A stretch of DNA of 64,000 bases, from contig JAUIJL010000005.1 of NCBI GenBank assembly GCA_030431255.1, positions 403,313-467,312 of the forward strand. The letters are read 5' to 3'. Shown here one piece after another: positions 28,804-37,767 of this stretch (its first letter is position 1; the number at the start of each line of letters is the position of its first letter). This stretch comes from Thermoanaerobaculia bacterium (GTDB lineage: Bacteria; Acidobacteriota; Thermoanaerobaculia; Multivoradales; J023). Below the pieces are notes generated by a model. It had not been told where the DNA came from. It ran no database searches and saw nothing but the letters and a program-made list of their open reading frames with translations. A program made the position numbers and the translations under genes.

Positions 28804-29193
28804 ACCGGTGGGCGTCCGCCCCAACGGCGCCGAGTCCTGTTCCGAGCGTTGACAGGCTTGTTCACGCTCGCGACGAGCGCTGAAGTCTAGTAGGCGGATC
28901 CGCTTCCTCGCAGGCACAGATCCACCTAGAAAAAACCGCTGGCTGCAACACCTAGGGCCATGAGCGGCACCCGAAAACGGCAGTTGGTCCCAGCGTTTTG
29001 CCACTGGCACAGTGGTTGCTAGATCATGGGTTCGAGAGCGAACGATCTCTCCTTCGAGACGAATCCATGAGCACCCAAGCCACCCGACGAAAAACCATCG
29101 AGCCCACCGGTTCCGATCCGATCACACCGGATCCGATCCTGGAGCAAGAGGCCGCACCCAGACGGATCGCACCCTGCTCGGCAACGTGATCCA
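28804..29193. other. Non-coding stretch before the permease remnant
   Basis: No gene or strong hairpin was recognised. The frame of the permease fragment is open from 29071, but the upstream residues do not look like permease sequence. Confidence 0.4.
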
Positions 29194-32093: not shown

Positions 32094-33317
32094 TCAGGAA
32101 GGCGGCACCCACGGACCGCCGGTGGGGTCGACCACCACCTCGAGGGGTAGGGGGTCTTCGTACGACTCGCCGTTCACCCGGAAGAAGTGGAACCGACCAT
32201 AGTCCTTGGTGGGATCGAAGAGGCCGAAAACGACCTCATGCCGGAAAGCTCCGAGTTTGACCGAGATGGGAATGGCAACGTCATCGCCGCGATCCCGCGC
32301 AGAGATGGAGCTCACGGCACCGCCCAAAGCGGGTTTGTGCCAAAAGATCCGCGTTTCCAAATCGAAGATGCCGACCCAATCTTTGCCCTTGGCGAGCCAG
32401 TCTCCAACCAACGGCCAGGCCCGTTCAACATGCTCTCCGACGTCGTTGACGATGCGCTCACTGTCGGATTCCAACACCAAGTGCCCGAACACACCGGCAA
32501 CATCATCCTGGTACCGATAAACCCCGAGCTCAGAGGAGGCTCCTTCCAACCAGCTGCCTGCCACGGGCCAATCCCCGGCCTCACCGACCCACCATTGGTC
32601 GACCAAGGCCAAGCTCGCCGCTTGGTCGCCGGCCCCATTGGGCACGATGGTGTAGACCTTGGTCAGGCCCGATTGGGGATCCCGCAAGGCCAGCTCGTGC
32701 CAGCCGTCGCCGTCGCGGTCGAGCACCAGTGGGGTCCAGGCTTGCAAGCTGTCGGAGCTGGGGACAATCAGCTTGGCGCACTCGGTCACCACGCGGCCTT
32801 GCCAGTCGCAGAGATAGAAGGCTTGCTCCAAGGCGTCGTACCACCCGAGCTCGGAGCCGTGGCCCGGGGAAGTGCTCATAGGACAAGCTCCTTCAGCCTC
32901 CGTCTTGTCGAGACGACATCCCGCCGTCGGCCAACGTCCGGCGATCGGGAATTTGGCCGGCACCACCAAGAGATAGGCCTGAAAGGTTTGATCACCGACT
33001 CGGTAGGTAAAGGAATCTCGACCAAAGAAGCCGACGTCGGGACGGTATTTCCAGGCCGGCTCACCGGCCGAGACGTCCGGATCGAGCGAGCCGAAAGTCG
33101 GTTGAGATTCCATCTGCAAGAGCTGTGGGCTCGGCTCCTCGGAAGGCCCCGACATCCAAGACAGATCTAAGTCTTCCTCGAGCAGAATCAGCTCGGTGTC
33201 GCTCACCAGAGCATAGGTTTTTCCTGAGCCGTTATCCGGCCCTCCTTGGGCGAGCGCGAGACAAGGAAAGATCCACGCGGCGGCCACGGCAGCAGCAAGA
33301 CGAATGAAGTGGAACAT
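32094..33317 (-). CDS. Secreted propeller-like protein, paralogue A
   Basis: 407 aa with a signal peptide (about 1-23, ending ALA) and AGGA upstream of ATG. An Ig/cadherin-like module (YRPDVGFFGRDSFTYRVGDQTF) is followed by blade-like repeats with PIAGRWPT, DRDGDGWHELALRD, DWPVAGSW and WPLVGDWL, resembling FG-GAP/VCBS propeller blades that bind calcium. It is clearly homologous over its full length to the protein at 36501-37721. Both end in DPLPLEVVVDPTGGP plus a few residues. The stop codon is 5 bases from the convergent FHA regulator gene. The function is unknown. Confidence 0.75.
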   Translation of the reverse strand: MFHFIRLAAAVAAAWIFPCLALAQGGPDNGSGKTYALVSDTELILLEEDLDLSWMSGPSEEPSPQLLQMESQPTFGSLDPDVSAGEPAWKYRPDVGFFGRDSFTYRVGDQTFQAYLLVVPAKFPIAGRWPTAGCRLDKTEAEGACPMSTSPGHGSELGWYDALEQAFYLCDWQGRVVTECAKLIVPSSDSLQAWTPLVLDRDGDGWHELALRDPQSGLTKVYTIVPNGAGDQAASLALVDQWWVGEAGDWPVAGSWLEGASSELGVYRYQDDVAGVFGHLVLESDSERIVNDVGEHVERAWPLVGDWLAKGKDWVGIFDLETRIFWHKPALGGAVSSISARDRGDDVAIPISVKLGAFRHEVVFGLFDPTKDYGRFHFFRVNGESYEDPLPLEVVVDPTGGPWVPPS

Positions 33318-33336
33318 GATCGAATCCTGAAACTAG

Positions 33337-33360
33337 GCGGGAAGGGCGGGCACGGCGGCC
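33337..33360. repeat. 24-bp upstream repeat of paralogue A
   Basis: A GC-rich 24-mer beginning GCGGGAAGGGCGGGCACG lies just upstream of paralogue A. It matches 23 of 24 bases of the copy at 37744-37767 in front of paralogue B, so the duplication included the leader. Confidence 0.8.
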
Positions 33361-33460
33361 TCACAAACACTTGAACGGCTCGGCTACGAAAAAGTTTTCC
33401 GATTTCCGAATTTCGCCGAAAAAGTTTTTGAGCTGTGCTCGCAGCGAGCGGCCGACCTCG

Positions 33461-36433
33461 TCAACGGCTGCGATCGGCAAGCCAGGCTTCGACCTCTTTC
33501 GCTTTCTTTCCGTGACTCGGGGATCGTGCGAGTTGATCGAGTGCGGATCGAGCCATGTCCAGGGCCTGCTCGACCTGGCCCAGCTGCCAAAGACCCTGGG
33601 CGAGATAGAACGCGGTTTCAGCGGCGTAGGCGTCGGGTCGATCCGCCTGCTTCCACACCTCGGCGGCCTGCTCCAAGGATTTCACGGCTTCCGCCGGGCG
33701 CCCCAACCCCAAGAGGGCACGACCTTCACCGGTCAACCCATGGGCGATCAAGAAATGGCCTCGGCCCAACCGCCGGCGCCAGATTTCGAGCACGGCGCGG
33801 TGGTGCTCGAGGGCCGCTTCGAAGTCCCTCATTTCGTTGAGGGCCTCCGCCAGGTTGTAGCGGGCCAAACCCGTGGACGGATGATCGGCGCCGTGGATCG
33901 AGGTCTGCACGGATAGGGCGGTTTCAAAATGGACCAAGGCCTGTGGATAGTCGCCCTCTTGCAAAGCCGCCGTGCCGAGATTTCCGGCGACCACCGCCAT
34001 CTTCGGACCGGCCACTTCATCCTGCGCTCGATAAATGTCCGCTGCTTCCTGGAAGGCGGCTCGGGCTGCGGCCGGCTCCTGCAGCCGGAGCAACACGGAA
34101 CCGAGATTCTGCAAGGTATCCGCCAGCATCGGATGCTGGTCTCCCAAACCCCGTCGAACGATCTCCGCCGCCTGGCGCCTCAGCTCCAGAGCCCGTTCCA
34201 GCTCCCCACGCTGGGAAACAATGCCCCCTAGCCGCTCCAGGGCCAGGGCGACGTCCGGGTGGGAGCCACCGTGAACCCCCGAGTAGAGATCGACGGCCTG
34301 CTCCACGTGACGCTCCGCATCCGCCAAACGACCGGCGGCGAGCTCAGCATTGCCCAAGCGGATCAGGGTGCCGGCCCGAGCCAAGTCGTGGGCCGGGGTC
34401 TCCGCTCCGATGATCGACAAGGCCTTGCCGTGGTGCTCTGCCGCGGCCTCATAGTCGCCGCGGCGATAGCTCAGCAGCCCGAGGTGGTCTTCGAGCATCA
34501 GCTCGAGCCGCCAGCGCTCCCCCAGCTCCTGAATCAAAGATCGAGCCATGTCCGCGTAGCGTTGCCCTCCCTCTACGTCGACTTTGCGATAACCCACCAG
34601 CCGTACCAATCGGAGGAAAGACTCCGCGGCCACCCGATCATGACGACCCGCTTCGGCCGATAAGAGAGCCTCTTGTAGGCTGCCGATGGCTGCGTCGACC
34701 TCTTCCAGTCGCTCCTGGACGCGCCCTTCCTCGAAATAGGCCTCGGCGATCAGTGGCCAGTATCCCAGCTCCTCGGCGGAAGCCACGACTTGCCGGCTCA
34801 GCTCCAGGCCACGATCGAACAATCCACCGTCCGAGAGGGCCCGAGCCCGCGCCAAGCGCGAGCGGGCGGCCGCGACCTGCTGCTCGGTTTGTGGATCCGG
34901 TGGGGCCAAAGGCGCGAGCAAAGCCACCGTATCCGCGCAACGCCCCAGGGCTGGAAGCGCGGCGGCCGCTTCCGCCGCCCCGCGCACCGCCTCGTCCGCG
35001 TTCTGGGTGAGCACATCGACCAGGGCGTCGAGCTCTGAGCGACGCTGCTCCAGGCAAGTCATGCGCAAATCGAGCAATTCTTCGCTCTGCTCGCCCCGGC
35101 GGGTCGCCCGGCAGGTCTCACCGTGCATCTCCACCCAAGCTTCTCGATAGTGGTCGAGGGTCGAGGCCACGGCTTGGGTCGCGTCTCCGGCATAGCCCGA
35201 GCCGGTGGCCATGAAAGCTTTTCGAAGAGCGGCCCGACGTGGCCCATCCCAAATACCCGTCATGCGCGACTCGCCCCCGGAGCATGCACCGGCACCCGAG
35301 AAAGCGATATATGACCCCGCCGACACGACCAACGCCAACAACACGCCTGCAACCGCGAGTCTCGCCCACTGGTTGCCGCGTCGCTGTCGCTCGAGCTCGG
35401 CCAACAACTCGGCCATGGATTCGAAACGATCCTCCGGCGCCGGCTGCAGACCGCGGATCAACACCGGCTCGAGCCGTTGGGCCAACGGCTCGGGGATGCG
35501 CTCCGGGTCCATCACCTCCCCGAATCTGGGATGCCCCTCGGGCCACTTGCCGAAGAGGGCTTGGTAGAGGGCGATGCAAAAGCTGTATTGGTCCGCGGCG
35601 GCACCCACCACCCGCCCCTCCCGCTGCTCCGGGGCCATGTACGACGGTGTGCCGAGCACCGTGCCGGTTCGGGTGACTCCCCGCGGATCGAGGGACGCTA
35701 TGGCTTCGAGATGCTCGGGGCCGGCGGACTCCAGCTCCTCCCAGTCGAGCCGAAGGCTGTCGTCCGAGCCGGAGGCCAGACCGAAGTCGCACACCCGCAC
35801 CCGGCCGTCGTCACCGACCAGCACGTTGCCGGGTTTGAAGTCTCGATGCACCAAACCGGCTTCGTGGGCGGCAGCGAGCCCTCGGCCCGCTTCCAAAAAC
35901 ACGTTGAGGATGTCTTCGCTCGAACGGGAGGCGCCCTGCAACCAGCCGCGAAGGTCGACCCCTTCCACCAGCTCCATGGCGACGAATACACGCTCTTGCT
36001 CGGCGTCCGCCACGACCCCGACATCGAAAACCGCCACCACCTGAGGATGGTTGAGCCGCGCCAACGCCTTGGCCTCTTGCAGCAACCGCGTCTCCAGACG
36101 CTGTCGATGGCTGGAGGTCGGTCTCAGGAGCTTGAGGGCGACTTTGCGGTCGAGATCGGGATCGTAGGCGGTATAAACCCGGCCCATCCCCCCGGAGCCG
36201 AGCAGGTCGAGCACCAAATAACGACCCACCAGGCTGCCGCGGCTCGGCTCCCTCGGTGACTCGGCATCCCGGGCCTGCCCATCCGCCAGGGTCGAGGCCA
36301 AGGTCGTGGTCTCGCTCGACGGAACGTCTAGAGCCATTGCCGCGGTCGACGATTCCCATTCCGACATCGCCGCGGTCGGCTCGTCGATCGACGGCTCGTC
36401 GGGCACGGAATCGGGATCTCGTTTTCCTTTCAT
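33461..36433 (-). CDS. Membrane Ser/Thr protein kinase with periplasmic TPR domain
   Basis: About 990 aa from the ATG at 36433 (a TTG three codons earlier is possible). The cytoplasmic kinase spans about 70-345: LGSGGMGRVY glycine loop, VALKLL lysine, HRDFKPGNVL and CDFGLAS. One transmembrane helix (LAVAGVLLALVVSAGSYIAF, about 359-378) precedes WDGPRRAALRKAFMATGSGYA and a long TPR array to the C-terminus. This is the common Myxococcota/Acidobacteriota layout. It lies between, and on the same strand as, two paralogous secreted proteins, so the periplasmic TPR arm may interact with them; that is inference. Confidence 0.9.
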   Translation of the reverse strand: MKGKRDPDSVPDEPSIDEPTAAMSEWESSTAAMALDVPSSETTTLASTLADGQARDAESPREPSRGSLVGRYLVLDLLGSGGMGRVYTAYDPDLDRKVALKLLRPTSSHRQRLETRLLQEAKALARLNHPQVVAVFDVGVVADAEQERVFVAMELVEGVDLRGWLQGASRSSEDILNVFLEAGRGLAAAHEAGLVHRDFKPGNVLVGDDGRVRVCDFGLASGSDDSLRLDWEELESAGPEHLEAIASLDPRGVTRTGTVLGTPSYMAPEQREGRVVGAAADQYSFCIALYQALFGKWPEGHPRFGEVMDPERIPEPLAQRLEPVLIRGLQPAPEDRFESMAELLAELERQRRGNQWARLAVAGVLLALVVSAGSYIAFSGAGACSGGESRMTGIWDGPRRAALRKAFMATGSGYAGDATQAVASTLDHYREAWVEMHGETCRATRRGEQSEELLDLRMTCLEQRRSELDALVDVLTQNADEAVRGAAEAAAALPALGRCADTVALLAPLAPPDPQTEQQVAAARSRLARARALSDGGLFDRGLELSRQVVASAEELGYWPLIAEAYFEEGRVQERLEEVDAAIGSLQEALLSAEAGRHDRVAAESFLRLVRLVGYRKVDVEGGQRYADMARSLIQELGERWRLELMLEDHLGLLSYRRGDYEAAAEHHGKALSIIGAETPAHDLARAGTLIRLGNAELAAGRLADAERHVEQAVDLYSGVHGGSHPDVALALERLGGIVSQRGELERALELRRQAAEIVRRGLGDQHPMLADTLQNLGSVLLRLQEPAAARAAFQEAADIYRAQDEVAGPKMAVVAGNLGTAALQEGDYPQALVHFETALSVQTSIHGADHPSTGLARYNLAEALNEMRDFEAALEHHRAVLEIWRRRLGRGHFLIAHGLTGEGRALLGLGRPAEAVKSLEQAAEVWKQADRPDAYAAETAFYLAQGLWQLGQVEQALDMARSALDQLARSPSHGKKAKEVEAWLADRSR

Positions 36434-36500
36434 CGACAGCAATGGCTCCTAAAGGGTCGTCACCTGCTTTCTACCTTTCTACGCGTCTGGCGCGCGCGGG

Positions 36501-37721
36501 TCAATACGCCGGCGGTCGAGGGCCGCCCGTGGGATCGACCACCACCTCCAACGGCAGGGGGTCGTCCTCGTCCTCACGCACCTGGGGCAGATGAAAAACC
36601 CCAAAGCCTTCGGAGGCGTCGAAGAGCATGAAAACCGCTTCGGTTCGGGCGGTGGCCACGGGTGTGACCATCGGCACCGACTCCGGCGCACCCCGCTGGG
36701 GGATCCACTCCGAGGTCACGGTCCCACCGCCGGCCGGAGTCACGCGCAGGATCCGAGAGTCCAGATCGAAAATGGCCACCTGATCCTTTCCTTGGCGGAG
36801 CCAATCCCCGGCGAGGGGCCAAGGCTGGGCCACGAAAGAGCCGACATTCGCATGCCAGGTACCGCCTTGGCCGTCCTCCAATCGGAACACACCGATGTTC
36901 TCGCTCAGGTCGTCGGGATATTCGTAGACTCCGAGCTCCGAGGCGGGGGTCCCGGCCCAATTACCGGCCAATGGCAGCTCTCCCGAATCTCCCAACAGAA
37001 ATTGATCCACTTGCGCCAATCCGGTCGGCGACGTGCTCGAGCTATTGGTCAACACGGTAAAAACCCGCACCTCCGCGGTCACCCAATCCCTCAGGGCGAG
37101 CTCATGCCAACCATCACCGTCCACGTCGATTACCAGGGGGCTCCAGGTTTGCACCTCCGAGCCGGCGAGCACCCCGAACGCCACACACTTGCGGAGATGA
37201 TCGCCCTCCCAATCGCACAGATTGAAGGTCGTGGACAGGGCGTCCCACCAACCCAGCTCCATGCCGTGACCGGGCTCAACGCTCGGCGGGCAAGCCGAAG
37301 CGTCCGAGCCTTTGGCGGCGCAGGACTCGGTCGGCCAACGGCCGGCGATGGGATTCGCCACAGGCTGCACCAAAAGCCAGGCCTTAAATGGTCGATCACC
37401 GATCCGATAGGTGAATCCGTCGCGGCCGAAAAACCCTGGATCGGGGGTGTAGATCCAGGCCGAGGTCGGTGATTGGGGGTCTCGCTCCAGAGAGCCGTGG
37501 GACGGTGGTGAGGTGATCGAAGGGCGGGCGAAGGCTCCGATTCCAGACATCAGCTCCGCGTCGGAAATCGTCAGGGAGCGATTCGCCAACAGGGCGAAGC
37601 GCGAATCTTGGTTGGGGCTCGAGTTGGGATTGAGTTGGGCCCAAGCCGAAACAGACGGAATCAGCACAGCAGCCACCGACAAAGCGGCCGCAAAGGCAGC
37701 AAGGCGCACATTGAAGAACAT
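36501..37721 (-). CDS. Secreted propeller-like protein, paralogue B
   Basis: 406 aa with a signal peptide (about 1-28, ending AWA). It shares the layout of paralogue A: YTPDPGFFGRDGFTYRIGD, PIAGRWPT, DVDGDGWHELALRD, LPLAGNW and WPLAGDWL. Identity is scattered over most of the length but absolute across the tail DPLPLEVVVDPTGGP. CAGGATT precedes the ATG, as in paralogue A. It lies upstream of the Ser/Thr kinase gene on the same strand, separated by about 65 bases, so co-transcription is possible. Confidence 0.75.
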   Translation of the reverse strand: MFFNVRLAAFAAALSVAAVLIPSVSAWAQLNPNSSPNQDSRFALLANRSLTISDAELMSGIGAFARPSITSPPSHGSLERDPQSPTSAWIYTPDPGFFGRDGFTYRIGDRPFKAWLLVQPVANPIAGRWPTESCAAKGSDASACPPSVEPGHGMELGWWDALSTTFNLCDWEGDHLRKCVAFGVLAGSEVQTWSPLVIDVDGDGWHELALRDWVTAEVRVFTVLTNSSSTSPTGLAQVDQFLLGDSGELPLAGNWAGTPASELGVYEYPDDLSENIGVFRLEDGQGGTWHANVGSFVAQPWPLAGDWLRQGKDQVAIFDLDSRILRVTPAGGGTVTSEWIPQRGAPESVPMVTPVATARTEAVFMLFDASEGFGVFHLPQVREDEDDPLPLEVVVDPTGGPRPPAY

Positions 37722-37743
37722 AGCTCAAATCCTGAGGCACTGG

Positions 37744-37767
37744 GCGGGAAGGGCGGGCACGACGGCC
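37744..37767. repeat. 24-bp upstream repeat of paralogue B
   Basis: The second copy of the 24-mer found at 33337-33360, at the same distance from its gene, with one mismatch. Confidence 0.8.

Follow-up and report, generated by a model that had tools for sequence, protein, structure and literature searches.

The stretch analysed here, hereafter the window, comprises 64,000 nucleotides of DNA from a Thermoanaerobaculia bacterium (assembly GCA_030431255.1, contig JAUIJL010000005.1, positions 403,313 to 467,312), and it encodes a receptor Ser/Thr kinase, P0003, next to two paralogous secreted-looking proteins, P0001 and P0002, which are members of a family that we call S. The gene order on the minus strand is P0002, P0003, P0001, and the open reading frames bear out the original prediction, made from the letters alone, that paralogues of 407 and 406 residues bracket a receptor kinase on one strand. 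A neighbour absent from that prediction is P0004, the FHA-sigma54 activator gene beside P0001; it lies on the plus strand and converges on P0001, with 5 nt between their ends. The same prediction held that the tail common to the two paralogues is recognized by something, perhaps the periplasmic TPR arm of the kinase or an export or anchor system. The features of the locus are as follows.

36501..37721, minus strand: S protein 1, P0002, 406 residues (open reading frame, Pfam, AlphaFold2 model)
36519..36563, minus strand: stretch coding for the P0002 tail DPLPLEVVVDPTGGP, residues 387–401
37743..37766, strand not assigned: 24-nt leader copy upstream of P0002, 23/24 identical to the other copy
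33461..36442, minus strand: receptor Ser/Thr kinase P0003, 993 residues from a TTG codon, with the likely ATG start at 36430
32094..33317, minus strand: S protein 2, P0001, 407 residues (open reading frame, BLASTP against P0002)
32112..32156, minus strand: stretch coding for the P0001 tail DPLPLEVVVDPTGGP, residues 388–402
33336..33359, strand not assigned: 24-nt leader copy upstream of P0001
30172..32088, plus strand: FHA-domain sigma54 enhancer-binding protein P0004 (Pfam), convergent

P0003 has a kinase domain at residues 77–301, followed by one transmembrane segment at about 358–386, a cysteine-containing domain and a TPR array (Pfam: Pkinase, 5.6e-33; TPR_12, 5e-50). The only hydrophobic segment above 1.6 in a 19-residue hydropathy scan lies between the kinase domain and the TPRs. 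By its domains P0003 can be classed as a putative TPR receptor kinase of the Hanks type, and its cysteine-containing domain and TPR array are predicted to be periplasmic. Two other assignments were considered and rejected. For a PASTA kinase (PknB/Stk1), the model NF033483 gave 210.7 bits against a cut-off of 450, and PASTA was absent from the 25 of 26 Pfam families listed; PknG-type signalling combines a cytoplasmic kinase with cytoplasmic TPRs, whereas P0003 has a transmembrane segment between the two. The best relatives of P0003 in named records are mostly myxobacterial, with more than 400 bits at 29 of 80 loci. The window genome itself is rich in Ser/Thr kinases, with 178 matches to P0003 at E values up to 1e-10.

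C-terminal tails of the S proteins

P0001 and P0002 are identical at 175 of 388 positions (45%, BLASTP), and their longest identical run is the 15-residue tail DPLPLEVVVDPTGGP, in keeping with the earlier description of moderately similar proteins with identical ends. A run of 15 was reached in a fraction of 0.00145 of 20,000 column shuffles. Since seven of the 15 tail codons differ synonymously between the two genes, the tail is conserved at the protein level and is not a recent copy.

Three loci hold two S genes each, and in all three the two members of the pair have the same tail, which differs from locus to locus. In the window pair the bodies are 44% identical and the tail is identical at 15/15 residues; in the C27 pair, with bodies that are 31% identical over 319 positions, the tail PSTLPLKFPHEPPG (14/14) is the sole identical run of at least seven residues. 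The G005-C228 pair, with the tail PGTVPVDFPNDPPGG (15/15), is less telling because its bodies are 65% identical, and nine of 371 windows along it are identical. One explanation of this pattern is that it arose by gene conversion or by chance and that the tail serves no particular function. The window copies also have a common leader, which conversion could explain; however, the synonymous differences in all three tail pairs (4/14 codons at C27 and 10/15 at G005-C228, besides those of the window) disfavour recent conversion, and the same pattern is met in three pairs at three loci, so that we regard this explanation as very improbable.

The leader repeat of 24 nt has one mismatch between the P0001 and P0002 copies, the identity that had been predicted; its predicted coordinates were off by one, the true starts being 33336 and 37743. 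A match of such quality was found in none of 100 shuffles, and a 25-nt form of the leader occurs exactly twice in the 10.2-Mb window genome when up to three mismatches are allowed. As a sigma54 promoter the leader was rejected, the best upstream matches of the window S genes having five and three mismatches. On the plus strand both copies are runs of G tracts in close succession, which possibly form G-quadruplexes. At G005-C228 (L121), too, a shared leader precedes both S genes; it differs from that of the window.

A search of the window genome with P0002 gave further relatives, two of them with a TPR kinase and a convergent sigma54 activator as neighbours. A nine-row profile was run against 148 genomes of the class, with the best 13 candidates taken per genome, and gave at least 12 full-length S members, all from the family of the window genome (seven in the window genome, three in G005 and one each in G001 and G003). 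From another family came a partial profile match, G020-C13, a shorter S member that lacks the immunoglobulin-like (Ig) region in the alignment, and one further member, G005-C342, is cut off by the contig end; among the matches listed, many weaker ones cover the profile in part only. The total is at least 13 full-length S genes and one partial gene, at 11 loci. Gene calls outside the window were made with a simple script, and some starts are overcalled. A search of genome contigs for S in distant taxa, with P0002 alone, found nothing. In a sample of 396 genomes of the phylum (best four candidates per genome), near full-length S was seen in G000 and G001 only and partial repeat matches in G344; this sample says little, since only four candidates were taken per genome and three of the seven S genes of the window genome were missed, and G003, G005 and G020, which had no listed match, were perhaps not drawn.

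Across the family, the pattern [FVLI][PVIL]x[DE]P lies within the last 40 residues in 12 of the 13 full-length S proteins, which agrees with the expectation that homologues keep the tail. The first members served to define the pattern, at that stage with D alone; of four later members, G003-C18 and G020-C13 fit this form, and it was widened to D or E because the C27 pair has E. The loose motif occurs in the last 30 residues of one of 245 non-S proteins from the same loci and of two of 113 others, counts in which a few genes appear twice where loci overlap and the partial S frame of L120 is left out. In the window genome the tails of the five S loci differ, except that C42 and C6 are alike.

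The exact window tail was rejected as a widespread motif: the VVDPTGGP coding pattern has two matches in the 148 genomes, both in the window S genes. DPDPPP has seven matches in the window genome, of which two are S tails, four fall in reading frames 17 to 60 residues long and the seventh is in a frame of 216 residues, 61 residues short of its end. FPxDPPG, as a coding pattern in seven genomes of the family, also has seven matches: three are S tails, another three fall in short frames, and the last is well away from the end of a longer, unrelated frame. A general sorting signal, the export or anchor alternative of the original prediction, is thereby disfavoured, as the tail patterns are hardly met in non-S proteins and the tails vary between loci. 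Near another FHA-sigma54 activator, a secreted-looking protein of 297 residues (L103, 3960–4853), with no Pfam match, has the end VVLVDEDDPPPVSPSEP, which loosely resembles an S tail.

The S proteins follow a common plan: after the signal peptide comes, in some members, an Ig domain, then a predicted propeller and finally the C-terminal tail. A hydrophobic, signal-peptide-like N-terminus is present in both P0001 and P0002; signal peptides of the remaining members were judged by eye. P0002 has a Big_9 Ig-like domain at about 40–120 (Pfam, 2.4e-07; 32.0 bits against a gathering score of 23.6), and in P0001 the same domain scores 20.1 bits, under the cut-off. FG-GAP falls below the Pfam cut-off in P0002 and is not listed for P0001. 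The AlphaFold2 model of P0002, built from a 12-row alignment (predicted local distance difference test score, pLDDT, 66), contains the Ig-like region and then β-strands up to residue 328, with a predicted propeller-like part at about 122–328; residues 330–406 have pLDDT below 50 and are predicted to be disordered or flexible. Among the best structural matches of the model were a chain of an UmbA4 complex, DDB1 and integrin-α propellers, at Z of 8 to 10, with phage collar chains at similar Z, and the Foldseek searches gave no convincing single structural relative.

It has to be considered whether the tail instead belongs to the S fold and is conserved for the sake of folding, for instance as a closing strand or a dimer contact, and S does not touch the kinase directly. 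A terminal strand often closes a propeller, and the tail has a β-like hydrophobic stretch before [DE]P; against this, it is of very low confidence, and was taken as disordered, in both S models (from shallow alignments of five and 12 rows), it follows a variable, poorly aligning stretch, and the C27 pair keeps it to the letter between strongly diverged bodies. We consider a purely structural role improbable.

Linkage of S to a branch of TPR kinases

Every S locus found, 11 in all, has a TPR kinase. S adjoins the kinase at nine of them (the window, C16, C42, C6, G005-C80, G005-C228, G005-C342, G003-C18 and G020-C13), and at G001-C198 the activator sits between S and the kinase. The kinase of G005-C80 is partial, at a contig end, and that of G003-C18 is in pieces in the script gene calls. 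An FHA-sigma54 activator is present at seven of the 11 loci; the contig ends at G005-C228 and at G005-C342.

In a tree of 19 kinases of the family, the ten with S lie on one side of a branch and the nine without S on the other (support 99/99), and none of 500 label shuffles was as low. This tree left out G003-C136, which was taken into a tree of 32 kinases together with 12 matches from other families of the order; the kinase searches considered the best 121 candidates per genome in the run that gave G003-C136 and the best 11 in the other-family run. In the larger tree, ten of the 11 S kinases form one clade (93/99) that includes G020, from another family, and the eleventh, outside the clade, is a 285-residue fragment. 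The co-occurrence of kinase and paralogues that the original prediction had proposed as a check was thus found at every S locus, in one clade except for one short fragment. The G020-C13 kinase is, at 792 bits, the best outside the family among the matches listed, and an S gene lies just downstream of it. Two groups, {C42, C6, G003C18} and {C27, G001C198, G005C228}, are common to the S and kinase trees.

Comparisons within the kinases left out the partial ones, G005C80 and G003C18. Nine S kinases have in common 13 conserved positions that are not conserved in 21 other kinases; all 13 are in the ectodomain, 11 of them in the TPRs. The ratio of TPR identity to kinase-domain identity is 0.71 in the S kinases and 0.67 in a clade of nine without S, against 0.50 in another set of nine and at most 0.61 in 60 random sets.

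Sigma54 activators and promoter sites

P0004 matches FHA (4e-14), Sigma54_activat (1.6e-59) and HTH_8 (1e-09), the last a Fis-type helix–turn–helix, and by these domains it is an FHA-sigma54 enhancer-binding protein. Sigma54-like sites, defined by at most two mismatches within 300 bp upstream, were found at six of 14 S genes, none of eight kinases tested and nine of 143 gene starts in the window-genome loci (S genes versus gene starts, Fisher p = 0.0005).

These sites bear on another explanation of the tail, as a retention, sorting or processing signal for some other locus-linked factor (a secretion helper, a protease or a surface anchor), with the kinase only regulating the expression of S. 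The sites at S genes would fit S as an output of the kinase and activator, S looks secreted, and its tail is at the extreme C-terminus, a usual place of sorting signals. Yet a general signal should be common to the loci and to other exported proteins, whereas the tails differ between loci and the motif was met in a single one of the 245 non-S proteins of the same loci; in addition, no further gene common to all S loci was seen in the locus gene listings, read by eye. On balance we think such a sorting role rather unlikely.

Several further observations concern the activator loci. A sigma54-type site without mismatches, TGGCACAGTGGTTGCT, lies at 29005–29020 of the window, upstream of a 126-residue frame, with the activator gene about 1.1 kb further on, and sigma54-like sites precede other secreted-looking proteins at activator loci (L095, 11697; L119, 10153; L123, 5999; L105, 4871). 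The sequence data suggest that sigma54-activator modules commonly control exported proteins. The window genome has 75 matches to P0004, some of which are pieces of one gene. A second family of large secreted-looking proteins, mutually related by BLAST, occurs near such kinases, and no Pfam match above cut-off was found in the two members scanned. Its members are:

L098, 11195–14881
L118, 4478–7000
L120, 3703–6363
L126, 11709–14444
L166, 4435–7335

A proposed tail–TPR partnership

We put at roughly 50% the probability that the kinase has P0001 and P0002, on either side of it, as secreted partners whose tail docks on its periplasmic TPR arm. Because S goes with one branch of kinases, the tailed S proteins are good candidates for the partner of the kinase, and the flexible tail would most likely dock on a locus-specific receptor, the TPR arm of the cognate kinase. 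The co-occurrence with one kinase clade and the locus-specific tail lend the original prediction of tail recognition indirect support. According to this scheme, S would be exported by Sec, its propeller or Ig part would meet an extracytoplasmic target, and its tail would dock on the TPR arm in the manner of a peptide in a TPR groove. Occupancy of the arm would set kinase activity; the FHA domain would then recognize phospho-threonine and the signal would pass to the sigma54 activator, P0004, which we infer to be the partner of P0003. The activator may drive S itself in several loci, although not visibly in the window locus. With two S copies per kinase, one receptor would have two sensing heads and one plug.

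A number of observations weigh against this partnership. The S protein of G005-C80 has no clear tail, and the single tail match of G020 is modest evidence since the motif also occurs in non-S proteins. At C27 some 13 kb separate the S pair from the kinase. An FHA-sigma54 activator was seen neither at G005-C80 nor in 14 kb of G020-C13, and neither S gene of the window has a good sigma54 site. Two changes of the S label are required on the tree of 32 kinases (versus a shuffled mean of 9.3, with none of 500 shuffles as low), a single change is obtained in only 40% of bootstrap trees, and the 93/99 branch is below the star mark of the tree tool. Inside the group {C42, C6, G003C18} the trees conflict, G003C18 pairing with C42 by kinase (99/97) and with C6 by S (87/86). 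The conservation of the ectodomain is also weak evidence, because the ratio is similar in the clade of nine kinases lacking S.

Parts of this arrangement are already known: kinases of this type, FHA-sigma54 activators and the idea that an extracytoplasmic protein assists a TPR kinase. Work by Jelsbak from 2005 reportedly deals with FHA-domain sigma54 enhancer-binding proteins in Myxococcus xanthus; P0004 is like them in its FHA domain, sigma54 AAA domain and Fis-type helix–turn–helix, and it adjoins a kinase and S locus. The layout of a kinase with one transmembrane segment and periplasmic C-terminal TPRs is described in the excerpted text of PMC11032199, which cites C-terminal TPRs in 26% of 317 kinases of Sorangium cellulosum. 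P0003 is predicted to resemble the TPR receptor kinases of Planctomycetota and Myxococcota in its cytoplasmic kinase, single transmembrane segment and periplasmic TPRs; unlike the window locus, none of the 80 named loci with P0003 relatives has an S homologue at E 1e-5. In the PknG–GlnX–GlnH system of Actinobacteria, a TPR-bearing Ser/Thr kinase receives a signal from an extracytoplasmic protein (excerpts of PMC8546545 and PMC11032199); PknG is cytoplasmic and GlnX carries the signal across the membrane (PMC11032199, same excerpt), whereas here the TPRs would be periplasmic and touch S directly, so that the likeness is one of working principle only. The receptor kinase PknD of Mycobacterium tuberculosis senses by an extracellular propeller (excerpt of PMC6213207), which is part of the kinase, whereas the propeller-like part of S belongs to a separate protein. 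Among the open-licence papers listed by literature searches we recognized no description of such a kinase–secreted protein pair.

As a tentative extension, which we regard as possible but doubtful, exchangeable secreted propeller heads, one or two per kinase, would plug into the TPR arm by a locus-specific tail, with tail and groove forming a private lock and key. If this is true, the tails would insulate five such receptors in one cell from one another. Periplasmic TPR arms are common in bacterial receptor kinases, and the function of the TPRs in such kinases is mostly unknown according to the excerpted text of PMC11032199. S, which co-occurs with the kinase, is linked to it genetically and has a short defined tail, offers a concrete candidate ligand for these arms.
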